Made by a program: the position numbers and the translations under genes | The notes under the pieces: model-generated | Database searches by the model: none | The model's input: only the letters and a program-made list of their open reading frames with translations | Told to the model about the DNA's origin: nothing | Shown here: positions 3,828-27,823 of the stretch, piece by piece | Position numbering within the stretch: position 1 is the first letter of the stretch | How the letters are laid out: every line of letters begins with the position of its first letter | NCBI GenBank assembly: GCA_900315265.1 | Contig: OMYN01000015.1 | Coordinates: forward strand, 1 to 43,590 | Reading direction: 5' to 3' | Source: an uncultured Eubacteriales bacterium | GTDB taxonomy: Bacteria > Bacillota > Clostridia > Lachnospirales > Bianqueaceae | DNA: 43,590 nucleotides

Positions 3828-4985
3828 ATGGATATAAAACTTCCTTCAAATGCTCGTAAACAAACGATCAATAAAACGACCTATGTATACATTGATAAAC
3901 CTTTTTGGAATCCGCAGCGAAAACGCGGGGAGCATAAAAGAGAATATATCGGAAAAATGGATAACGATGTTTTCATCCCTAATAAACTGTACCGGAAACA
4001 ACTTGAAATAGAAGAGATGCGAAAACAAAAAGCGCTTTCGGAGGGTGCCGCTGATCCTACTTCCAGCGACAATCCTTCCGATAGTCTTTCCGACAGCCTA
4101 TCCGGCAGTTCCTCCAATAAAATAAAAAGCCCTTTATTGGTGCTGGACCGGATCAGTGAGAAATATCAGGTCAAACAAGCACTATGCTGCTTATTTCCGG
4201 ATCATTATCAAGAGTTACTTTATTTATGTTATTATATTGCCTTGGAAGGCGCTGTTACTTTTGACCATTTTACCAACTGGGCTATCCAACAGAATATACC
4301 GTGGCAGAAAGAACGTACGATGCAAGATATCGAAGCGCTGCTGCATTCAATAACCCCTGCGATCTATGACGGGTACTGTCAAAAAATCTCCTTTGTCTTC
4401 AAACAGGCTGATATGATCGCCTATGATATCACGATGGAGCAAGATCAAAGACAGGTTTCAACTGTATCTTGCTCTGACTCGTTTTTTTCCCCGCATTTTC
4501 TGCTGATCGTCCATCGCCGTTTTGGGATCCCTGTCTATCTTTGCGGTTGTGAAAACCAAACTGAAATCAACGACCGCATTCGAGGCATTCGCATCGGCCG
4601 TTCTGATGCTCAGCCTGTCTATTCCAAGATCACTGTTTATCCGGATCCTTATCTTGAATCTTCTGCAGGGGAAAACTTCCTGCACAAACCATTAATAGAG
4701 AGCATTCTTCAAGTGATCCGTAAATGCAAATACTTTTATACCTATCAAACATCCGGACATGGCATTTCCGGCTACCCCTATTTTTTCCTGTCTTTTATTG
4801 CTTTACAATTGACAACTATTTTGGATATTTACTGTGACCTTCTGCTTTCCAAACCATCTGAACAGGTAATCGCCGATCTTTACCGTTTTGATAACAAAAG
4901 GGAAGCCTCCTCTTCGACCTTGGGCCCCGAAGACAAGAAAACGGATGGGTTTTTAAGGCTGATAGATAATATCGCCAAAATATGA
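3828..4985 (+). CDS. IS1634-type transposase derivative, internally deleted
   Basis: 385 aa, against roughly 550-600 for intact IS1634-group (IS4 superfamily) transposases. The N-terminus (TTYVYIDKPFWNPQRKRGEHK, then EYIGKMDNDVFIPNK) matches the family opening KtYVYe..yWd..kkq.r.kR..IGKld. It is followed by a Ser/Asp-rich linker (residues 70-100), SPLLVLDRISEKYQV and a first DDE-type Asp in MIAYDIT. The segment normally carrying the second Asp (DRGF) and the catalytic Glu is absent; the protein passes straight to the C-terminal FLSFIALQL helix. The long frame has stayed open despite the loss of catalytic parts. It may be a decaying remnant or a domesticated DNA-binding protein. It has no visible ribosome site; the TATAAAAC next to the start lies inside the 33-bp repeat. 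Confidence 0.6.
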   Translation: MDIKLPSNARKQTINKTTYVYIDKPFWNPQRKRGEHKREYIGKMDNDVFIPNKLYRKQLEIEEMRKQKALSEGAADPTSSDNPSDSLSDSLSGSSSNKIKSPLLVLDRISEKYQVKQALCCLFPDHYQELLYLCYYIALEGAVTFDHFTNWAIQQNIPWQKERTMQDIEALLHSITPAIYDGYCQKISFVFKQADMIAYDITMEQDQRQVSTVSCSDSFFSPHFLLIVHRRFGIPVYLCGCENQTEINDRIRGIRIGRSDAQPVYSKITVYPDPYLESSAGENFLHKPLIESILQVIRKCKYFYTYQTSGHGISGYPYFFLSFIALQLTTILDIYCDLLLSKPSEQVIADLYRFDNKREASSSTLGPEDKKTDGFLRLIDNIAKI

Positions 4986-5100: not shown

Positions 5101-6102
5101 ATGCGTAAAGTTCTGTTTCTCGTTAATGGTCAAGGATGGGGACATGCCGTAAGGGATCTTATGATTGCAAAGAAGATCCACGAACTCGATAAAAGCACGA
5201 TGATTTATTTTGCTTCGTCTGAAGATGGGCTGCGTTACTTTACTCTTCAGGATATCGATTGTCTCTCTCTTGACGCAATCACTTATCTTGATCTTTATTC
5301 TCTTGTGAAACCGGATCTGATCGTATCGGATGAAGACTTTAAGGCATTAGCCAGCTATCAGCTGCTATTGTCCAAACTGGTTTTCATCACCAATTATCTG
5401 GATCTGATCGATAGGGATACTTTGACACTCTTGTCGCAATGTCATTGTGTCCTGTTCTGTGAATTCTCTGATTCCGTACACAATAAAAACGCGATTTCGG
5501 ACAATGTGCTGTTTGTCGGTCCCCCATGCTCCTGGGACTGTACAGCCGTTTCTACTTCGAATACAGAAAAAACGGGAGTTCGAACATTCATAGGTCGAAC
5601 CATTCTGATTAGGCTGGGTGGGTGTCATAACTCCTCTGCACGCTTGGAGAATTACCAGCTGCTGTATCGATTAGGTAAGGTTCGCTTGCATAACTATACT
5701 TTTTTACTGGCAGATACTTCGTATACTGCCCTTCACATTCCCTGGAACACGACTATGCATGTGATCGACCCCGGCCGGATCGACCAATCCCTTCTTGATT
5801 CGTGTCATCTGATCATTGCAAGAGGGGGATGGAACACTCTTTGGGAAAGTGCTTTTTTAAAAAAACGCTGTCTCTCTATTCCCTACTCCGACAAAGTCAA
5901 CCCATTGGAAGAGTACACAGCTCTTACGATGAAACAAAGACACCTGATTTCAAGCATCTGTCTGGACAATGGTCAAACCGACCTTCAAGCGCAGTTGGCT
6001 CAATCGATCGATTCGAAAGATCCTCTTATTTCTCCTGCAAGCTGGATCGCTCAGCAGCCGAACCGATCAAGCCTGAACGATGTTCTTCGAAAACTAGCGT
6101 GA
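5101..6102 (+). CDS. GT-B fold glycosyltransferase of the RiPP operon
   Basis: 333 aa. The N-terminal GQGWGHAVRDLMIAKKI is the glycine-rich acceptor-domain loop of MurG/UGT-like GT-B enzymes. The C-terminal half holds IIARGGWNTLWES (RGGWN at residues 241-245), the family's nucleotide-sugar-binding G.GG/E region. The middle residues D-L-I-V-S-D-E-D and VLFVGPP fit the inter-domain beta-alpha units. No membrane segment is seen. It is the first gene after the promoter at 5013, 33 nt before the radical SAM gene. The place in the operon suggests that it glycosylates the peptide product, as the S- or O-glycosyltransferases of glycocins do. That is inference; the sugar and acceptor are unknown. Codons are AT-rich compared with the ATP synthase genes. 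Confidence 0.75.
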   Translation: MRKVLFLVNGQGWGHAVRDLMIAKKIHELDKSTMIYFASSEDGLRYFTLQDIDCLSLDAITYLDLYSLVKPDLIVSDEDFKALASYQLLLSKLVFITNYLDLIDRDTLTLLSQCHCVLFCEFSDSVHNKNAISDNVLFVGPPCSWDCTAVSTSNTEKTGVRTFIGRTILIRLGGCHNSSARLENYQLLYRLGKVRLHNYTFLLADTSYTALHIPWNTTMHVIDPGRIDQSLLDSCHLIIARGGWNTLWESAFLKKRCLSIPYSDKVNPLEEYTALTMKQRHLISSICLDNGQTDLQAQLAQSIDSKDPLISPASWIAQQPNRSSLNDVLRKLA

Positions 6103-6135: not shown

Positions 6136-7461
6136 ATGAACTGGAAGAAAAAGATCGAAACTCACGACCGGTATCTGGCTATTTCTTTTCCAAACACTGA
6201 AAACTGCCTTCTTACCAACCTATATGATAATTGTACGATGTCGGTGACACAGGATGACCTTGCCAAATTTCAAAGTATCCTTAAGGAGGAAAAACTGTCT
6301 CAGCTGGCTTCAAAACTGATCGCTAACGGCCTTTTACGGTTTCGCGGGCAGCAGACCGTCCTGGATCAGGAAAATGATCGATTTCCCTCTGTCGTATACT
6401 GGGGACTGACCGATCGCTGCAATCTTAGATGCCGTTATTGTTACGGTTGTTTTGGGGAAAACAAAGAAGCGGTCCCTTTGTCCCGGATGGATGCCTGCAC
6501 GATAATCGATCGATCAACAGAACTCGGCGTTCAAAAAATCAACCTGACAGGCGGTGAGGCATCCCTGCATCCCCTGCTTTTCCAAATAGCCGAACAGATC
6601 CGTGCCAAAGGAATCGACTGCGGACTATTAACGAACGCACAGGCCATCACCGCTGAAAATGCAGGTAAGTATAAGGTTTTCAGTTATGTAAAAGTAAGTT
6701 TGGATTCGCAGTATGCGGATCTCAATGACGCCTGCCGGGGCTCCGGCAGCTATCAGAAAACGATCGAAAGTCTTTCTTTACTGCGCCGGGAAAACATTCC
6801 GGTCAGTATAGGATGTGTCATCAACCGACTGAACTACCGGCAGATCGATTCATTTCAACAATGGTTGGAAGATCGTTTCGGCATCACGGACGTTTACCCT
6901 GCTTATCTGACTCCTACCGGACGCGGGACCGGTACAGGCTTGGATCTATCGGAAGATCAAGTACTGGAAACAGAAAATCAACTGTTTACCAGACTGATGA
7001 AGGATGACCGATATCGACAGCGTGCGCTTAAAAAGCAAAACCTTAAACGTGCCCGCGTGAGTACCCGCTGCGGCATGGGCATGACGGAAGTCTTCCTTAA
7101 TTATGCCGGGCAGGTTTACCCCTGCCGAGCAACGTATGAGCCGGACATGGATGCCGGTAATCTTTTGACTGATCCCCCGGAAACCATCCTTGACAGATTG
7201 CATGCTATTTCGGACCAATATGATGTAGCCCGCCTTTCCTGCCGTGACTGTGATTTTCGTTTTCTCTGCTCCGGAGGCTGCCGGGTCTATCATAAGGCGT
7301 ACACAGGCAGCTGGACCATCAATAGTCCGGTCATCTGCCGGCGAAAAATCAATGAAATCTGTCATTCGATCATACTGAATTCCGGATTATCCGGAATCTC
7401 ATCCTACACCTATCAGGTTATATCTCTGACAAGCGAAACCAATCAGCCTGGCAGGGTATAA
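6136..7461 (+). CDS. Radical SAM/SPASM peptide maturase
   Basis: 441 aa, start preceded by GGAGG. Residues 1-85 form a small domain that may be a winged-helix recognition element. The radical SAM cluster motif is Cys95, Cys99 and Cys102 in CNLRCRYCYG, followed by LTGGEASLHP (SAM-binding GGE) and VKVSLDS. A C-terminal SPASM domain has Cys312, Cys330, then CX2CX5CX3C at Cys369, 372, 378 and 382, and Cys401, ligands for auxiliary 4Fe-4S clusters. Such enzymes install thioether (sactionine or ranthionine), C-C or epimer modifications on ribosomal peptides. Immediately downstream (27 nt) lies a 32-aa Cys/Gly-rich peptide that is the likely substrate. Which reaction occurs cannot be told from sequence. 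Confidence 0.92.
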   Translation: MNWKKKIETHDRYLAISFPNTENCLLTNLYDNCTMSVTQDDLAKFQSILKEEKLSQLASKLIANGLLRFRGQQTVLDQENDRFPSVVYWGLTDRCNLRCRYCYGCFGENKEAVPLSRMDACTIIDRSTELGVQKINLTGGEASLHPLLFQIAEQIRAKGIDCGLLTNAQAITAENAGKYKVFSYVKVSLDSQYADLNDACRGSGSYQKTIESLSLLRRENIPVSIGCVINRLNYRQIDSFQQWLEDRFGITDVYPAYLTPTGRGTGTGLDLSEDQVLETENQLFTRLMKDDRYRQRALKKQNLKRARVSTRCGMGMTEVFLNYAGQVYPCRATYEPDMDAGNLLTDPPETILDRLHAISDQYDVARLSCRDCDFRFLCSGGCRVYHKAYTGSWTINSPVICRRKINEICHSIILNSGLSGISSYTYQVISLTSETNQPGRV

Positions 7462-7488
7462 TAAAATCTCGAAAGGAGGAACATGACC

Positions 7489-7587
7489 ATGTATGAAAAG
7501 CCTGCAATGGAAGAGACCGAACTGATCGTTTATACGAAGTGCGGATGTGGGTGCGGCGGCCACAACGGCGAAGGCGCCGGCTGCTGA
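7489..7587 (+). CDS. RiPP precursor peptide (CGCGC core)
   Basis: 32 aa. The ATG at 7489 is 9 nt from AGGAGG (7474-7479); an in-frame ATG at 7483 is only 3 nt away and is less likely. The leader is MYEKPAMEETELIVYTK, acidic in the middle with a hydrophobic LIVY, the type of stretch bound by PqqD/RRE domains. The putative core is CGCGCGGHNGEGAGC: Cys18, Cys20 and Cys22, and a final Cys32, with 7 Gly in 15 residues. It has no double-Gly processing site. The gene lies between the maturase and the PqqD gene, with a very strong ribosome site and a hairpin behind it, the usual arrangement for an over-produced precursor. Four cysteines could accept thioethers from the radical SAM enzyme or a sugar from the glycosyltransferase; both are inference. 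Confidence 0.85.
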   Translation: MYEKPAMEETELIVYTKCGCGCGGHNGEGAGC

Positions 7588-7604: not shown

Positions 7605-7631
7605 CCGCGGCCTTGTTTACCTGGGCCGCGG
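7605..7631 (+). terminator. Hairpin after the precursor gene (attenuator or stabiliser)
   Basis: CCGCGGCC (7605-7612) and GGCCGCGG (7624-7631) form a perfect 8-bp GC stem with an 11-nt loop, 18 nt after the precursor stop. The T-run needed for full intrinsic termination is missing (CCTCCCCTT follows). It more likely protects or partly terminates the upstream mRNA, so that precursor exceeds downstream enzymes. Confidence 0.6.
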
Positions 7632-7682: not shown

Positions 7683-7940
7683 ATGCTTCATTTACGTGAC
7701 GGGATCGTGATCGAATTCAGCGAAGGCAATGACGCCTATGTACTGATGGATCTTGACGAAGGTAAAGTATATAAGCTTAACTCTACCGCTCATAAAATGC
7801 TCTCTTCCATTGAAAACACCGGAAGCCTTCAGCAATACTATGATGAGGTCAGAGACCAGGCAGATGATCAGACGATCCGCCGGGATGCGTCTGATTATTT
7901 GAATGAACTTATCAGTAAGGGATATGTTATCGATGAATGA
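7683..7940 (+). CDS. PqqD-family RiPP recognition protein
   Basis: 85 aa, preceded by AAGGAGG. It has the PqqD/RRE pattern: an N-terminal beta hairpin (LRDGIVIEFSEGNDAYVLMDLDEGKVYKLN), then STAHKMLSSIEN and a helical end (DYLNELISKGYVIDE). Free-standing PqqD-like proteins bind the precursor leader and hand it to the radical SAM enzyme or peptidase. Its stop overlaps the start of the next gene by 8 nt, which implies coupled translation. Confidence 0.85.
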   Translation: MLHLRDGIVIEFSEGNDAYVLMDLDEGKVYKLNSTAHKMLSSIENTGSLQQYYDEVRDQADDQTIRRDASDYLNELISKGYVIDE

Positions 7941-8691
7941 ACCGGATATACCATCACATTTACCCGCCTATCATATTGGCAATGCAAAAGAAATTAAACC
8001 AGTAGAAAATTTTTCAGCCACGACTCGCGGCCAATCGATGCTCCCTTTGATCAAAGATGGAGATAAGATAAGTTACAGACCTGTCAATGAGGGAAAAGTT
8101 GACATCGGTCAGGTCGTTCTGGCTTTTGACGGCAAACATTTTTTCAGTCACAGGATCATTGATCGAATCGGAAGCAAATATGTGCTTAAAGGGGATAACA
8201 ATCATTATATCGACGGTTTGTTCGAAAAAAAGTCTCTGATCGGAGCCGCTGTATCCGAAAAGGTAAATGACGACCGATTTTCTGTTCTTTTTAAAGAAAA
8301 GGAAGCTTTTTGGGCCAAGATCACTTTTACAGGAAACCTGTTCGAGTCATCGACTTTTCAAAAGGCCTGTTTTGAACATATGCCTTTCCATTTTGAATCA
8401 CAGGTACCCTCCGGAACGGATCTACACATAGGAATCGACCGGACAAGTGGGATCACTTTTTCCGAGGGACTTTTAAATCATTTTGAAGAACTATATAACG
8501 CTCGATCCATTTGTATCGATTTTTCCCTTAAGGAAGATGATCCTCATAAAGATATGACCTACACGTATTGTTGGAATATAGAAGGGCAATATCAGATTCC
8601 CGGACTCGATCAAAAGGATCAATGTCTGATGATTATTGGCATGTTAAGTCAATGCCTTACCAGGAGGCTGCGTCATGACAAATCTATTTAA
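7933..8691 (+). CDS. S24/S26-type serine peptidase with unknown C-terminal domain
   Basis: 252 aa from the ATG at 7933 inside the end of the PqqD gene. Residues 28-110 hold the LexA/signal-peptidase fold: TRGQSMLPLI with nucleophile Ser35, DIGQVVLAF, HRIID, and YVLKGDNN with general base Lys86. There is no N-terminal membrane anchor, unlike true signal peptidase I. About 130 residues follow (PFHFESQVPSG, LHIGIDRTSGITFSEG, YTYCWNIEGQYQI) that I do not recognise. They could be a substrate-binding domain and are faintly like the N-terminus of HPr-kinase-like RiPP proteins. As the exporter has no C39 peptidase domain and the leader lacks a GG site, this is the best candidate for leader removal. 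It overlaps the ABC gene by 17 nt. Confidence 0.75.
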   Translation: MNEPDIPSHLPAYHIGNAKEIKPVENFSATTRGQSMLPLIKDGDKISYRPVNEGKVDIGQVVLAFDGKHFFSHRIIDRIGSKYVLKGDNNHYIDGLFEKKSLIGAAVSEKVNDDRFSVLFKEKEAFWAKITFTGNLFESSTFQKACFEHMPFHFESQVPSGTDLHIGIDRTSGITFSEGLLNHFEELYNARSICIDFSLKEDDPHKDMTYTYCWNIEGQYQIPGLDQKDQCLMIIGMLSQCLTRRLRHDKSI

Positions 8692-10369
8692 GATTTCGTC
8701 TGCTTTTAATAAGGATAAAGAACTGACACAAAAAGCTCACCGGCTTTTGTGGATATGTCTGGCCGTTTCCCTTGTGACGGCGGCGATCCAGTTTTTCGGT
8801 CCGCTTGCTGCCCGGCAGTATCTGGATCAGATTTCCACCGCAAACATCCTGACGGCCTGCGCTATTATCCTGGGCAGTTTTCTGTCAGTCGGTCTTTTGC
8901 AGCTTCTGTTTCTGCTCTACAAATATAAAAGCGGGGTCCATATCAAGGCTTCCATGCTGGGGACCCTGATCACCCGTATCCTGACCATGCGCTACGATGC
9001 CCTGATTGCCAAAGAACCGACTTATCTTTTGGACAGGTCCGGAGAATGCGTCAACAACCTTTTCGATTACTACACCGAGACCCTGCCGGATCTGTTTAGG
9101 ACCCTGATCACCCTTGCCGCCTGTTATGCAGCCGCTTTTCTGATTCACTGGCCCTTAGCGGTTATTTTCACGCTGGTCCTTCTGGTCCAGGTTTTCGGCT
9201 ACCGCGGGCTCAATCAGAAGCTGGGGACCATGAGCGTGAAGCTCTCCAAGATCGCCTCCCGCAAATTCACCATCCTCAGTTCGCTGCTGGGCAATGTTGA
9301 CTTTTTGAAGCAGCTGCCGGACCGCAGCGCGGTTGCCAAATTTGTCTATGACAAAGACCGCGAGGAAAAACAGGTCGAAGCGGACATCAACATTTACGCC
9401 GGTAAGGTCAGCATCATCTTCGATAACCTCCTGTCCATCCTGTCCAACGGGGTCTATGTCTACATCCCTATCGCCCTCATGCTGGGCTGGCTGGACCTGG
9501 GCGACTCTGTCTATCTGGCCCTGGTAAGCGGGCTTTTTATGCCGGCCGCCAAACGCATGGTCGGCGTACAGCTGAACATGAAAGCCCTTTACGCAGCCAA
9601 TGACTTTTTGAGTCAGGATCTGGCTCCCAACCTGGAAGAGGAAAATAAAGGGATGTCTCTGGCCGGACCGGTCACCGACATTTCCATGGATATCAACAAC
9701 TTTTCCATCGATAAGAAGCTGCTGGTACAAAACGGCAAGGCTCATATCGAATCCGGCAACATCGTCAAAGTGGCCGGTCAGACGGGCTGCGGAAAATCAA
9801 CGCTGATGAAAGCCCTGGTCGGCTTCCGCCCGGTCGACAAGGTGACGCTGGACGGGCAGGCCCTCGACACGCTGAGCAAGGCCAGCATCCGCAGCCACAT
9901 CCTCTACATCCCCCAGCAGGCGCCTATCTTTTCGGGGACCGTCGCGGACAATATCACCCTGGGGCTTACTCCGCCCATGAGCGTGGATCAGCTGGCCAAG
10001 CGTTTAAAGGGCACGGTTTTTGAAAAATATGTATCCGATGCTTACGGTCTGTCGACCGCCATCGTTGAAAACGGCGCCAACCTATCAGGCGGCGACCGCC
10101 AGAAGATCTCGCTGGCCAAGGTCGAAGTCTTCGACTGGGACGTGCTGATTTTGGACGAGGCCACCAGCGCCATGGACGCCGAGACTGAAGACCGCATGCT
10201 GGGCTATATCTGTCAAAAAGCCAAAGAGCGCCGCGCCATCGTCTTCATTATTTCCCACTCAAGCACCATCGACGCTTTCTGCAGCAAAGAAATCCTGATC
10301 CAAGACCGGCATCTGGAATGCCTGCCGCTGGATCCGTGTCCTGAACGTCAGCCTCTTGAGGAAATGTAA
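8675..10369 (+). CDS. ABC exporter (fused permease-ATPase) of the RiPP operon
   Basis: 564 aa half-transporter, which should work as a homodimer in the membrane. Residues 20-320 hold about six hydrophobic segments (LLWICLAVSLVTAAIQFFG, ILTACAIILGSFLSVGLL, FLIHWPLAVIFTLVLLVQV and others). The ATPase domain has Walker A GQTGCGKST at residue 368, signature LSGGDRQKISLAK near 470, Walker B VLILDEATSAMD near 490, and the H-loop IISHSS. No N-terminal C39 peptidase is present. It is last in the operon and likely exports the modified peptide or gives self-protection. The first 75 bp keep the AT-rich codon style of the upstream genes, but from about 8740 on the gene is strongly GC-rich. Confidence 0.9.
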   Translation: MTNLFKISSAFNKDKELTQKAHRLLWICLAVSLVTAAIQFFGPLAARQYLDQISTANILTACAIILGSFLSVGLLQLLFLLYKYKSGVHIKASMLGTLITRILTMRYDALIAKEPTYLLDRSGECVNNLFDYYTETLPDLFRTLITLAACYAAAFLIHWPLAVIFTLVLLVQVFGYRGLNQKLGTMSVKLSKIASRKFTILSSLLGNVDFLKQLPDRSAVAKFVYDKDREEKQVEADINIYAGKVSIIFDNLLSILSNGVYVYIPIALMLGWLDLGDSVYLALVSGLFMPAAKRMVGVQLNMKALYAANDFLSQDLAPNLEEENKGMSLAGPVTDISMDINNFSIDKKLLVQNGKAHIESGNIVKVAGQTGCGKSTLMKALVGFRPVDKVTLDGQALDTLSKASIRSHILYIPQQAPIFSGTVADNITLGLTPPMSVDQLAKRLKGTVFEKYVSDAYGLSTAIVENGANLSGGDRQKISLAKVEVFDWDVLILDEATSAMDAETEDRMLGYICQKAKERRAIVFIISHSSTIDAFCSKEILIQDRHLECLPLDPCPERQPLEEM

Positions 10370-17104: not shown

Positions 17105-18856
17105 TTACTTCTTTCTGAAAGCAGCCAGCACCTCTTCCGCACTGTCCGTGATCTCCTGACGGGCTTCATCGGAAAGCTGGCCGGTCGTATCGATGGTCTT
17201 GCACAGATCAGCCTTTTCACGGGCAAAATAGGCAAGCAGCGTCTGGGCAGCTTCGCCTACCTTCTTGACGTCGATGCCTAAAAACTGATGAGCCAGCGCG
17301 CAGGTCAGCAGAATGACCTGTTCGTGCTGCTGATAGGGATGATGCTGATTCTGCCGAAGCAGCCGCATCAGTCCCTGGCCGTAGGCCAGCTGCTGTTTGG
17401 TCGTTTCGTCCAGATCACTGGAAAACTGCGTGAAGACTTCCATCTCCCGGTACTGGGACAGGTCCAGTTTGATGGATCCGGCGGCTTTTTTCATGGCCTT
17501 GGTCTGGGCTGCACCGCCCACACGGGATACGGACAGACCGACATTGACGGCCGGACGCTGTCCTTCGAAAAAGAGATCGCTCTCCAGGAAGATCTGTCCA
17601 TCGGTGATGGAAATGATGTTGGTGGGAATGTAGGCGGATACGTCGCCTGCCTGGGTCTCTACGATGGGCAGGGCCGTCATGCTGCCGCCGCCCTTCTCGT
17701 CAGACAGATGGGCTGCCCGCTCCAGAAGACGGGAATGCAGGTAAAAGACGTCGCCGGGATAGGCTTCCCGTCCGGGAGACCTCTCCAGAAGAAGACTCAT
17801 AGCCCGGTAAGCGACCGCATGCTTGGACAGATCGTCATACACGATCAAAACGTCCCTGCCTTTATCCATGAAGTACTCACCCATGGCGCAGCCGGCATAA
17901 GGAGCGATGTACTGAAGGGGCACCGCATCCGAAGCCGAGGCGTCAATGACAATGGTGTAATCCATAGCTCCGGTGTTTCTCAGAGTCTGGGTCAGCTGCA
18001 TGACGGAACTGTTTTTCTGGCCGATGGCCACATAAATGCAGACCACATCCTTACCTTTCTGGTTGAGGATGGTATCCAGCGCGATCGTGGTTTTTCCGGT
18101 CTGACGGTCGCCGATGATCAGCTCTCGCTGGCCGCGTCCGATGGGGAACATGGAATCAATGCTCAGGATACCGGTCTCCATGGGACGGTCGACCGGCTGA
18201 CGGTCAATGATCCCGGGTGCCGGCGATTCGACCGGACGGTAATCCGTTGCCTGGATGGTTCCTTTTCCGTCGATCGGAGACCCTAAGGCATCGATGACTC
18301 GTCCCAGGAACTGATCTCCTACCGGGATACCGGCTTCGCGTTTGGTCCGATAGACCTTGCTTCCTTCCAAAACGTCCTGATCGTCACCGAACAGGATGCA
18401 GCCGATCTGATCTCGTTTCAGATCCTGGACCATGCCTTTAATGCCGCATTCGAATACGACGATCTCGCCGTAGGTTGCGTTGGTAAGGCCCTGGACAAGA
18501 GCAATACCGTCGCCTACGGTCATCACCGTCCCCACTTCCTGAGGAACAACGGCAGGGCGCCACTTGGCGACATTTTCACGGATAAGGGGCATGAGACGGT
18601 CGGAAGGAACCTGCGGCAGCTCCTCGATCATCTCCCTCATCTGATAAAGACGTCCGGACAGACTCCAATCATACACGTCGTGGCCGATCTCCAGAACAAA
18701 GCCCGACTTTAGACTGGAGTCTTCCTGGAAGGTCAGCGTGCAGGGCCCGTATTTTTTGGTAAGGAAGCGCTCAAAAGCCCAGAGCTGGTCCTCCGAAGGC
18801 GCCTGGGCAGCGCGGATGACAGCCCGCTTCTGTTTGGAATCGGAAGTTGCGCTCAT
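17105..18856 (-). CDS. atpA: ATP synthase alpha subunit with N-terminal delta-like domain
   Basis: 583 aa, about 80 longer than usual alpha. The start at 18856 is well supported: it overlaps the end of atpF by 4 nt and has GGGGAGGGG 7 nt upstream. Residues about 10-75 are not alpha sequence: EDQLWAFERFLTKKYG, EDSSLKSGFVLEIGHDVYD and WSLSGRLYQMREMIEEL fit the end of the delta subunit (L-KK-, DxSxxGGxxxxxGDxVxDGSxxGRLxxL). Normal alpha then begins (LMPLIRENVAKWRP, EVGTVMTVGDGIALVQGL), with P-loop GDRQTGKTT and AYRAMSLLLERSPGREAYPGD. No separate delta gene lies between atpF and this gene, where it normally sits. The extension thus seems to replace the part of delta that holds the b stalk; the delta N-terminal domain is missing. 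Confidence 0.92.
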   Translation of the reverse strand: MSATSDSKQKRAVIRAAQAPSEDQLWAFERFLTKKYGPCTLTFQEDSSLKSGFVLEIGHDVYDWSLSGRLYQMREMIEELPQVPSDRLMPLIRENVAKWRPAVVPQEVGTVMTVGDGIALVQGLTNATYGEIVVFECGIKGMVQDLKRDQIGCILFGDDQDVLEGSKVYRTKREAGIPVGDQFLGRVIDALGSPIDGKGTIQATDYRPVESPAPGIIDRQPVDRPMETGILSIDSMFPIGRGQRELIIGDRQTGKTTIALDTILNQKGKDVVCIYVAIGQKNSSVMQLTQTLRNTGAMDYTIVIDASASDAVPLQYIAPYAGCAMGEYFMDKGRDVLIVYDDLSKHAVAYRAMSLLLERSPGREAYPGDVFYLHSRLLERAAHLSDEKGGGSMTALPIVETQAGDVSAYIPTNIISITDGQIFLESDLFFEGQRPAVNVGLSVSRVGGAAQTKAMKKAAGSIKLDLSQYREMEVFTQFSSDLDETTKQQLAYGQGLMRLLRQNQHHPYQQHEQVILLTCALAHQFLGIDVKKVGEAAQTLLAYFAREKADLCKTIDTTGQLSDEARQEITDSAEEVLAAFRKK

Positions 18857-23424: not shown

Positions 23425-26400
23425 TTATACCACTATTTTCGAGTGTTTTTTTCTGTTCAGGATAAAGAGGAACAGGACACCTGCCGCCAGCATGGCCCCT
23501 CCCGCACGATAAGCAAAGGTTCCGGGCCCGCCGGTAAACGGCAGCTCAAAGCCTTCCTCAACATTTTTAAGGGTCTGCCCGTTACCGATCCCGCATCCTG
23601 GTCGGCCAGGCCGTTTCCTGCTGAATCAGCATATTCCGTCCTGTAGCCATCCACTTTGACCTCGGTCAGCAAGTAGCTGTACTCATTGCCGCTGCTGTCG
23701 GCATAAGGAAGGTTCTGGAACTCGAAATTAAAGGTCCCTTCTCCGCTGCCGGTCACCAGAGCATAAGAAGAGATTTCCGCTTCCCCTGTCACCGGCGACT
23801 CTTCTGCTGTAAAGGATCCGTCCCCATTCTTTGTGATCACAAACCGGGAAGCGATCTTTTCCCCGCCGGAGCTTTTTCCCGTCAGAATGACCGTAATGTC
23901 CTTCTGCCAATCACTCTTAACGGTTCCATCAGTCCCGATCCACTGTTTATTGAAGGCAAAGGAGGTATACTGCACCAGATGGTCACTCTTATTGGTAACC
24001 GTAATGGTGCCCTTTTCGATACCGTCGTTGTTGACAGCGGTGGTGGTGAATCCGGCGACTGCCTCTTCCTTTACGTAGTAATAATATTTGTTTCCAGCCT
24101 CATCCTGAGCCGGCAGGTCGACCCAGGTGTGGCTCCAGTTGCTATCGGACGTAAGCGTTTCTTCCGGATAGGTGTTCCCGTCTGCATCCTTGGCCCGTTC
24201 ATCTATGGTGGTGCCGCTGTGCGTATACTTCCTCCACAGAGTCACCTTCGCCGTCTTGCTGGGATCGTTCAGATCCTTGTTGTCTGCGTTCAGCCAGACT
24301 TTATGGACAGTGATCGCTTTCATTTCATTGGGCACGAACATAGTCCCGCTGGACCGCACAAACTGTATCTGACTTTCCAGGTTGCTGTCGCTGGCGGAAG
24401 AAGCCATGTAAATGTCGTGGTCGCTCTTACTCTCGTTGCCGACCGGCACCCACATAAAGTAGTACGGAGTCGAACTTAACTGATATCCTTTAGCTTTATT
24501 GGCATCCCCCACGTCGACCTCCGTCAGCCGGTACAGGGTCCCGGTCTCCAGGCCGTCGTCCCGCTTGGAGAAGAACAGCTGACCGCTGGCATCCGTGGTC
24601 AGCGAATGAGTCCGAGGCGTTACCCCTACCCACTTATCCGAAGCAGAAGAATCATACTTTTCAAGCTTGAATGTGACTCCGTTCAACAATATTTTATTAT
24701 TGTCCGCGTCCACCTTATAGACGTACATCTCCTGGCGGACGACGCCCGCTCCGGTATTGGTGGTCGATACCTTTAGTCCCTTGTCATCGGTTTTGACTCC
24801 CAGACCCTGCAGCGATGCCGCATTGGTAACGGTGGGATCAGACTCTCCCAGCACAAAAGAATACTGATAGCTGACCACACAGGCAAGAGCGTCCGGCAGC
24901 GTGATCGTCAATTTATTGGTCTTCGTGTCGTAGGTGTACGAGTAACGGTTAGGATCCAGCTTAGCCCCTTTATTATGGGGCTTGGAAGCGTCAAAGGCAT
25001 ACACGTTCAGGCTCTCTGCCACAAAGTAGGGATCGTATCCTTTTTATCAACGGATAAAGTATCTTCCAGGGTTACCGTGTCCCCGCTTTGGTTCAGATCC
25101 TCCCCCTTGGGATTGACCGTAACGTTGTAATCGATGACGGCTGCGCCATTGCTATTGGACAAAAGCTGAGCCTGCTTATCCAGCGTTTTTACGACATGGT
25201 CGACTTCCGTCTTATTGAAAATAGAGACATTATTAAACGTCACTTCATTCTCGTAAACTTTTGAGGAATGATTCTGGTCCTGCCAGAAAGCCTGGTCCTT
25301 GATCGAAGCGGAATAAGTGATATCGATCTTGTCGCCGGGCTGGTAGCTGTACTTGACCGGATTATACTGGTCTTGTTGATATTGTCCTTTTCGAATGGTA
25401 AAAACAACTTTTGTACGGCCGTCCGACATGGTTTCCGGGGACGTATGGCTGAAATAATCATTTACGTCCAGCCGGGAATTATTAAGGGTGTCGCTGTCGT
25501 AAGACTCCAGATAAAAGCTGGCGTGCAGGGACGACTCATCGATGGTAAGGCCTGCCGGCAGGATATCCGTCAGTGTCAGCTGGTCCCCGGCATCTTCCGG
25601 AACGGTAAAGATGATGCGGTAATAGATCTTACCGTCCTTGTACTGGACCTTGGTCCCCGCCTCCGAAAAGCTGTCATGACCTCCGTCGGCCGAGGGTTCC
25701 TTTACGAAATCTTTTTCCGTTCTGGGTTTTTTATATTCGTAATATGCACTTGTATTATGGCCGGGAATGGCCGCTGCGTTCTTGAACCGCCAGGTTGTCT
25801 TATCGGCCTGATCCGAATAATCGGCGTAGGAACTGTAATAATAGGTAAGGTTCTGGGCGCCGCTGATTTTGTTCAGCGCCGGATCTTTGAATACGACCCT
25901 GAAGCCGTAGATAGGATCCTCCGACTGATCGTCGGCGGCAATAACCGTCCCGTCAAGTTTCTGGACGTCATAATCCGTCCCTCTGACCAGAGTATCCCCG
26001 TAGCCATTGTTTCCCAGGCCGCTGCCCAGGTAGGGAGTAAAACTCAGGGTAGCATTCAACTGCTTTGCTGTCGTATAATGATTGCCTTCCAGTTCACTGC
26101 CGTCGCAGCTGGTGGTCATGGTATCATCAAAGGTCAGCTTGGACAGGTCGGACGAGTAATACCTGCTATCCGGCAGTTCGATATAACCGCCCCACGGAAT
26201 GGTAAAGACGCTCCCATCGGAAGTGATGGAATTCGTATAGACCGTCTTTTCTACGGTAAATCCCTTAATGGTCCCTGTCCCGCTGGTCCCGTTTTGGTAT
26301 GTTTTCGTTCCGCCGCCGGGCGTATCATACACCGTATTGTTGACGGTTACTGAGCTTCCGGCATCCCCTTCGGGATAATCCGTTGTATAGGTGATGGTAT

Positions 26401-27823
26401 ACTGGCCGTCGGTCGATCCGGACGGAAACGTAAAGTTGCCGTTTTCATCCACGGTTACGGTAAAATCAGCCCCACCGTCGGTGGGATGGACCGTAAAGGA
26501 AGACGGGAGAGTCAGACTACTCCCGGAATCGGTCTTGATAACGTCCCGGAACGTATCCCTACTGAGGTCATGGCCGTCCGGATTGTTGATCGTAATGGTC
26601 CACGTGAATTTTCCGGTCGTATCGTTGCTGCTGACCGTTTTGGTCAGGTAAGGTTCCCGGCTGGTGATGGTGACCGTGTTGCTCCACTGGTTTTCTGCTT
26701 CCGCCTGGTTGCTAATAGTCCTTCTGCCTCCGGGGCCTTCCGCGTATCCATTTGCATCGTCGACCGTCACGTCATAACAGATTTTATAGGATCCTCCCGC
26801 AGCCAGTTCAGGCAGATCATCGATGGTCCAGTCATTGGAACCGCTGCTGTGGGAAAAATCGTAGGTCCCCAGCACATTGCCGTTGTTGTCATAAACGGTA
26901 GCTTTTGAAACCCTAATGTGATCGGGATAGATATCGGTAATACGATCATCGAAGCGATAAGTCCTGCCCGAGCCGTTGGTCGAGCTGGCAACTACGGTAT
27001 AATGATAGATGTTTTTATCGTTTTCGTCCTGACTGCCGCTTTTCTGAAGCGACACATCATGGTTTTCTTCCTGCGTCTTGGGATTGACAGTGATGGTGGT
27101 TTTACCCCCGATCGTGTAAGTGTCACTGCCGGAACTGTTGGTGTCGTGGACGAAACCTTCCAGTGTGATATACCCGTCGAACCCTTTGGAAGTATCAAAA
27201 TCGGAATTCAGCGTGATCGTAACGGTCCCGTCTCCGGAAACCGTATAGGTACCTGCATCTACTCCTCCGGACGTAAGCACATGGCCGCTGCTTCCTTCCA
27301 GAAGGGACAGGCCCGTCAGGTTGGTGCCTGCGCCGTTGATCTTAAAAGTAAGAACCGCTCCCGAAGGATATTTGCCGCTGTCTGCGCCGTAAATGATCTT
27401 AATACGGACCTTGTCGCCATCCGTAAATTCGGTCGAATCCTGCCATTCGCCGTTGACATTTTTCTGAACGACAATATTAGAAATAATGTCTGACATATCA
27501 TAGGTGCCGCCGGAGGGGTCCGTACCGTTCCCGGTATTGGCCGGCAGTTTGGCCGGACTCTGTTGAGGCTCACCTTCTTCTGCGGTGTTTTGGGAAGCTG
27601 TATTTACGGAGTCTGTGATTTCAGAATCTGTATTATCGGAATCTGTATTACCGGAATCTATATCTTCGGAATCTGTATTTCCGAGATCAGTATTTTTGGA
27701 ATTTGTATTTACGGAATCTTCGGCAGCTGATTCTTCCGCTGCTATGTCGGTAGACTTCATCATTCCGGTACAGGTCAACGTAATCATAATCGCTATCGCA
27801 ACGGCCACGGCTCTTGTTATCAT
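23425..27823 (-). pseudogene. LPXTG-anchored Cna-B type surface adhesin, two frameshifts
   Basis: One long gene of about 1466 codons split into three frames. Frame 1 (27823-25007) has a signal peptide (MITRAVAVAIAIMITLTC), a low-complexity stalk of NTDS repeats, then adhesin domains with DxxD/TVTV-type strands. Frame 2 (25022-23580) continues with several Cna-B repeats (YVYKVDADNNKILLNGVTFKLEK, ITVHKVWLNAD, YYYVKEEAVAGF). Frame 3 (about 23580-23425) gives LPFTG (23530-23544), a hydrophobic helix and NRKKHSKIVV, a sortase anchor. A single missing base near GGG 25029-25031 and another near CCC 23578-23580 (plus-strand runs) would restore one frame. The N-terminus may also start further up (ATG 27912, out of frame). 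Pseudogene, phase variation or sequencing error cannot be separated here. No sortase gene is in the window. Confidence 0.75.
27597..27715 (-). repeat. 15-bp coding repeats for the NTDS stalk
   Basis: Degenerate units of about 15 bp encode NTDSx five-residue repeats in the adhesin's N-terminal stalk, about eight copies. The unit is a multiple of three, so copy changes keep the frame. Confidence 0.65.

Follow-up and report, generated by a model that had tools for sequence, protein, structure and literature searches.

The StsA and StsB models of NCBIfam (NF045558 and NF045574), which represent a Streptomyces sactipeptide precursor and its maturase, describe the systems closest to the locus reported here. 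StsB is reportedly a sactisynthase that forms sactionines although it is MftC-like in sequence, and ordinary sequence similarity is said to file it with the mycofactocin maturases. The mycofactocin precursor is not known to carry Cys cross-links. Binding of the WxxP motif of StsA by a discrete RRE, StsC, has been demonstrated experimentally (PMC12710340). Streptosactin is a 14-mer (sequence in PMC12445099) in which Ser28 and Gly34 act as the acceptors for Cys (PMC8172795), and the documented acceptor classes include Gly, Ser, Asn and Glu (PMC8326336; PMC8172795).

The window, i.e. the whole stretch of 43,590 nucleotides that was analyzed, holds an operon in which a glycosyltransferase, a radical SAM (rSAM)/SPASM enzyme, a short precursor, a PqqD-type RRE, an S24/S26 peptidase and an ABC exporter follow each other on the + strand. 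Judged from its sequence, this is a divergent StsA/B/C-type cluster, in what is probably a Bacillota genome. Its features are as follows.

5101 to 6102, + strand: GT28/MJ1255-like glycosyltransferase (TIGR00661, 1e-9, far under its cut-off; PF04101, 2.9e-4, just under its cut-off)
6136 to 7461, + strand: StsB-like peptide maturase of the rSAM/SPASM type, 441 aa (StsB NF045574 as best NCBIfam match)
7474 to 7479, + strand: Shine-Dalgarno sequence AGGAGG (read from the sequence)
7489 to 7587, + strand: precursor peptide gene, StsA-like, 32 aa (NCBIfam StsA match; 8 homologues beside StsB genes)
7492 to 7503, + strand: YxxP recognition motif of the leader, Tyr2-Glu-Lys-Pro5 (aligns with WxxP in 8/8 homologues)
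7540 to 7584, + strand: core CGCGCGGHNGEGAGC (CxC and GxG common to the 8 homologues)
7605 to 7631, + strand: perfect 9-bp GC-rich inverted repeat in the gap between precursor and PqqD gene (fold -21.1 kcal/mol, z -1.34, no U-run)
7683 to 7940, + strand: discrete PqqD-type RRE, StsC-like, 85 aa (PF05402, 4.9e-10)
7933 to 8691, + strand: S24/S26 peptidase resembling archaeal/SipW-type signal peptidases (signal peptidase I TIGR02228, 1e-5; PF00717, 8.7e-5)
8675 to 10369, + strand: ABC exporter with fused permease and ATPase (PF00664, PF00005)

The frame from 7489 to 7587 translates to MYEKPAMEETELIVYTKCGCGCGGHNGEGAGC followed by TGA, and divides into a leader, MYEKPAMEETELIVYTK, and the core, CGCGCGGHNGEGAGC. 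The 15-residue core contains a CxCxC block, ends in Cys and includes 7 Gly in all, as the preliminary description had read it. Translation had been placed at 7489 or at the in-frame 7483; the former is the likelier start because it lies 9 nt from AGGAGG, compared to 3 nt for 7483, and the numbering Cys18, 20, 22 and 32 was therefore retained. Among 30,084 stop-terminated frames of 20–80 codons, drawn from the window and from unrelated loci, only this ORF combined C.C.C with at least 5 Gly in the last 20 residues. The precursor occurs once in the 2.16-Mb genome. A chance ORF or a degraded gene might be suspected from a length of just 32 codons, and from the lack of any close homologue of the neighboring rSAM enzyme in the sampled genus, family and order. 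The strong Shine-Dalgarno sequence and the position in the operon speak against this. The ORF is a real gene and more than a product of chance because homologous precursors adjoin homologous rSAM genes in other organisms, which leaves the chance explanation a negligible probability.

NCBIfam was used to assign both proteins to a family. The precursor matched a single model, StsA NF045558 (E=1.9e-4), with 21.3 bits against a cut-off of 42 bits. About half of this score comes from the leader and about half from the core: the core alone scored 10.8 bits, the precursor with a scrambled leader scored 9.7 bits, and the leader alone, a shuffled core or a core with Cys changed to Ala gave no match. 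The rSAM protein matched StsB NF045574 best of 79 matches (6.9e-51), with 173.5 bits against a cut-off of 625 bits; this was the highest StsB score among 398 genomes of the phylum. MftC was its second-best match (4e-32). The assignment is to a divergent variant, since neither score reaches its cut-off and the enzyme is only 25–30% identical to StsB proteins. The CxxxCxxC motif (C95, C99, C102) is conserved with StsB proteins, as are 7/7 SPASM Cys (C312, C330, C369, C372, C378, C382, C401), so that ligands for two auxiliary clusters are present in the sequence. In trees the enzyme, on a long branch, joins StsB with support of 94/84 when all rows are included (MftC then forming a separate clade), which falls to 88/47 without the long-branch comparators. 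An AlphaFold model of the enzyme had a mean pLDDT of 54, too poor for use. Of the features that broadly define the StsA type, this locus has a [WY]xxP leader and a core with CxC and GxG beside an rSAM gene, together with a discrete PqqD-type RRE. Two other precursor types were considered and rejected. Streptosactin is not what 'StsA' refers to, as the two have separate NCBIfam models; the streptosactin core matches NF050037 only and the window core does not match it. A SCIFF/ranthipeptide precursor would carry PapA-type repeats or else six Cys over some 45 residues, and the window precursor has 4 Cys in 32 residues.

Homologous loci were found in actinobacteria. On pSCAT of S. cattleyicolor, MVSSWIKPDITSAEPQMLPPACSCGCGSGGGGGAGS is encoded upstream of StsB, with PqqD and two ABC genes downstream. 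The rSAM protein at this locus exceeds the StsB cut-off (738 compared to 625 bits), and yet the precursor beside it reaches just 24 bits with the StsA model, near the 21.3 bits of the window precursor. When 84,980 species were scanned, the window rSAM protein alone found nothing, and a two-sequence rSAM alignment returned, among the matches listed, at least 7 further StsB-like loci, all actinobacterial, before the matches fell off to general rSAM proteins. There are thus at least 8 actinobacterial StsB loci, one of which was checked against the NCBIfam cut-off and passes it. In 8/8 a WxxP...CxC...GxG precursor lies upstream of StsB and a PqqD homologue downstream. The homologous cores, by locus, are:

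L067, Streptantibioticus cattleyicolor: CSCGCGSGGGGGAGS
L070: CSCSCGAFSGAGSGHGIEDPAAE
L071: CACGCAGGAGAGAGSAN
L072: CMCGVWSGSGQN
L073: CACGLWSGSGQAE
L074: CLCGAWSGSGSGAAN
L075: CACAIWSGSGAAN
L076: CLCGAWSGSGSGAE

The window locus agrees with these clusters in gene set, in most of the gene order, in the spacing from the aromatic-xxP motif to Cys and in the CxC...GxG core. The distance from Pro to the first Cys is 12 residues in the window precursor, L070 and L074. Homologues of the window S26 protein occur at the equivalent place in L071 (2.6e-8) and L070 (1.1e-7), i.e. in 2/3 of the homologous loci that share CxCxC, and among about 110 loci L088 was also matched weakly (0.001). Precursor, rSAM enzyme, RRE, peptidase and exporter are therefore common to the window, L070 and L071. 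The window differs in that Tyr replaces the Trp of the leader motif, the precursor gene lies 3' and not 5' of the rSAM gene, a single fused ABC exporter takes the place of two ABC genes, a fourth, C-terminal Cys and a glycosyltransferase are added, and the host is probably a member of the Bacillota. This placement, in preference to Actinomycetota, draws on two host proteins: ATP synthase beta is most similar to 2qe7 and other Bacillus-type entries (697–672 bits), clearly ahead of the mycobacterial 6foc (608 bits), and pyruvate kinase is most similar to the staphylococcal 3t05 and the Geobacillus 2e28. Searches for 16S and Spo0A as taxonomic markers found neither. The precursors of the window, L067, L070 and L071 are short, unlike the two-Cys homologues of L072–L076, which read as the C-terminal parts of longer ORFs (about 100–180 codons) with a common extra leader region.

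A profile of the 8 homologues, with the window precursor excluded, ranked that precursor 1st of 35,031 frames (E=4.9e-4), ahead of decoys chosen for StsA likeness from 398 genomes; its alignment was made by hand after the window precursor had been seen. A profile from an automatic MAFFT alignment did not retrieve the window precursor in a search of its whole genome, probably because MAFFT gapped the core. The NCBIfam StsA result is independent of both profiles. Within the related genomes searched, no second StsA/B/C-type cluster was found. The other StsA matches in 398 genomes of the phylum were taken as chance, as no rSAM gene was found in 30 of their loci within about 1.5 kb on each side. 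The stretches read around further StsB-like enzymes from the phylum and class held no StsA-like precursor.

Conservation in the core was assessed on distant relatives, no close homologue having been found in the genomes searched. CxC and GxG occur beside an StsB-like gene in 9/9 loci, the window included. CxC is invariant across the 8 homologues, and CxCxC is complete in three (L067, L070, L071). The two-Cys homologues can be aligned with the window core in two registers. Distance from the leader motif (MAFFT) places their CxC on Cys18 and Cys20, whereas distance from the GxG tail places it on Cys20 and Cys22; Cys20 is invariant in either register. In the GxG-tail register, His25 is replaced by Trp, Phe or Gly and Asn26 by Ser, Gly or Ala. 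Cys32 is found only in the window precursor. The alignment that the preliminary description had proposed as a check thus bears out the CxC and, in 3/8 homologues, the third Cys, but not Cys32, His25 or Asn26.

These comparisons uphold the identification of an rSAM-modified peptide precursor with an unusually short and Gly-rich core. The same core had been called unlike those of known sactipeptides, which is only partly right, as the StsA family shares its layout (e.g. CSCGCGSGGGGGAGS). The lack of bulky acceptor residues, which had been pointed out, is no obstacle because Gly, Ser, Asn and Glu are documented acceptors; the streptosactin 14-mer uses Ser and Gly (PMC8172795). Streptosactin (GGG subfamily, Streptococcus, NF050037) resembles the window core in being short and Gly-rich with Cys donors, and differs in its precursor model, with no cross-match, in the absence of CxC, in its unnested CxxS and CxxG rings and in its Rgg/SHP control. 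The mycofactocin MftC/PqqE SPASM enzymes likewise show similarity, through the MftC match and the small PqqD/MftB partner.

The S26 protein retains SMxP, HR and GDN motifs, its start (7933) overlaps the stop of the PqqD gene, and it is likely to be the leader protease; no C39 peptidase domain was detected in the ABC exporter. PDB sequence searches with the glycosyltransferase and S26 proteins gave no match. The inverted repeat at 7605–7631 might possibly be a weak candidate for an attenuator, and promoter and terminator scans gave no signal above shuffles. GC content is 40–50% over approximately 3.5–8.7 kb, compared to about 56% in the genes just outside, and a search of 392 genomes from the order gave no comparable rSAM enzyme. 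Acquisition of the cluster from elsewhere would fit both observations. The phage records searched gave no match. A 385-aa ORF (3828–4985, + strand) that borders the low-GC island has no credible Pfam or NCBIfam match, and its N-terminus resembles an IS1634-type transposase. Elsewhere in the window, an ATP synthase alpha subunit (17105–18856, - strand) carries the C-terminal half of delta/OSCP at its N-terminus (PF00213 positions 99–170), and the region between ATP synthase b and alpha showed no full delta ORF of its own. A large surface protein rich in Thr and Ser, in which Cna_B-like repeats were recognized by eye (23457–27823, - strand), reads as two ORFs that overlap in different frames, in the manner of a frameshifted gene.

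We consider it likely that the ORF encodes a precursor from which a divergent StsA-type sactipeptide is made by RRE-guided formation of alpha-thioethers, leader removal and export. The PqqD protein (7683–7940) would bind YxxP and present the 32-mer to the rSAM enzyme (6136–7461). A 5'-deoxyadenosyl radical would then abstract alpha-hydrogens within N26-G27-E28-G29-A30-G31, and the thiols of CxC(xC) would attack the alpha carbons. Two or three Cys-to-alpha-carbon thioethers into NGEGAG, with a mass change of -4.03 or -6.05 Da, would be the most likely chemistry. For the 16-mer KCGCGCGGHNGEGAGC, the computed monoisotopic MH+ is 1409.48 unmodified, 1405.45 with two links and 1403.43 with three. 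The S26-type protease would cleave the leader, and the ABC protein would export what is probably a signaling peptide or an antibacterial of narrow spectrum. Cys32 could be left free, disulfide-bonded or glycosylated.

SPASM rSAM enzymes make both alpha and beta/gamma thioethers (PMC8326336), so the same type of precursor might instead yield a ranthipeptide-like product with beta/gamma links, and PapB is indeed among the weaker matches of the rSAM protein (2.3e-22). However, StsB leads PapB by 94 bits, the precursor matches no SCIFF or PapA model, and Gly, which lacks a beta carbon, makes up 7/15 of the core and half of the acceptor stretch; beta/gamma chemistry is therefore unlikely. Still less probable is a metal-binding CxCxC mini-peptide or a disulfide knot, with the rSAM enzyme acting on another substrate. 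Such readings had been raised previously and draw on the CxCxC spacing, which is typical of thiolate metal sites, but they have no support here: the association of CxC and GxG with an StsB-like gene in 9/9 loci speaks against them, as does the RiPP arrangement formed by the leader YxxP and PqqD.

The glycosyltransferase gene raises a third alternative, in which this enzyme glycosylates one or more Cys or Asn26 and few or no thioethers are formed. The gene precedes the rSAM gene by 34 bp on the same strand, and since Ser and Thr are absent from the core, a sugar on the peptide would have to sit on Cys, on Asn or on the backbone. Only two relatives of the enzyme were found among 338 genomes of the phylum, one in its own genome and one in another. 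The former (L169, 2208–11336) belongs to a second rSAM peptide cluster, in which three rSAM genes stand in a row and which also encodes an M16-like peptidase and two ABC exporters; the latter (L170, 2807–8007) accompanies an rSAM/SPASM gene and an ABC exporter. Because both relatives adjoin rSAM and ABC genes, a role of the glycosyltransferase in rSAM peptide pathways is supported, though no particular target is. Against the glycopeptide route, the enzyme is GT28/MJ1255-like and not of the sublancin type, it had no tblastn match in any sts locus, none was seen in the clusters read, and the rSAM gene speaks for a radical step. We regard this route as improbable, although S-sugars, as suggested earlier, are possible given the adjacent gene. 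The preferred alpha-thioether reading also has a bolder form, which we hold to be a long shot: a glycosylated four-Cys sactipeptide in which three thioethers fold CxCxC onto NGEGAG, Cys32 is either glycosylated or engaged in a fourth link of reversed direction, and an StsB lineage outside the actinobacteria has recruited a glycosyltransferase.

Relative to the StsA kind, the new points are Cys32, the glycosyltransferase and the host. A distant StsB relative that keeps these partners in a different phylum would widen the known range of StsB-type chemistry and provide a second, independent sequence for defining the key positions of enzyme and peptide. The precursor would be a Gly-rich substrate of minimal size, with a single odd Cys, useful for establishing acceptor rules, and the association with a glycosyltransferase hints at a possible glycosylated sactipeptide.
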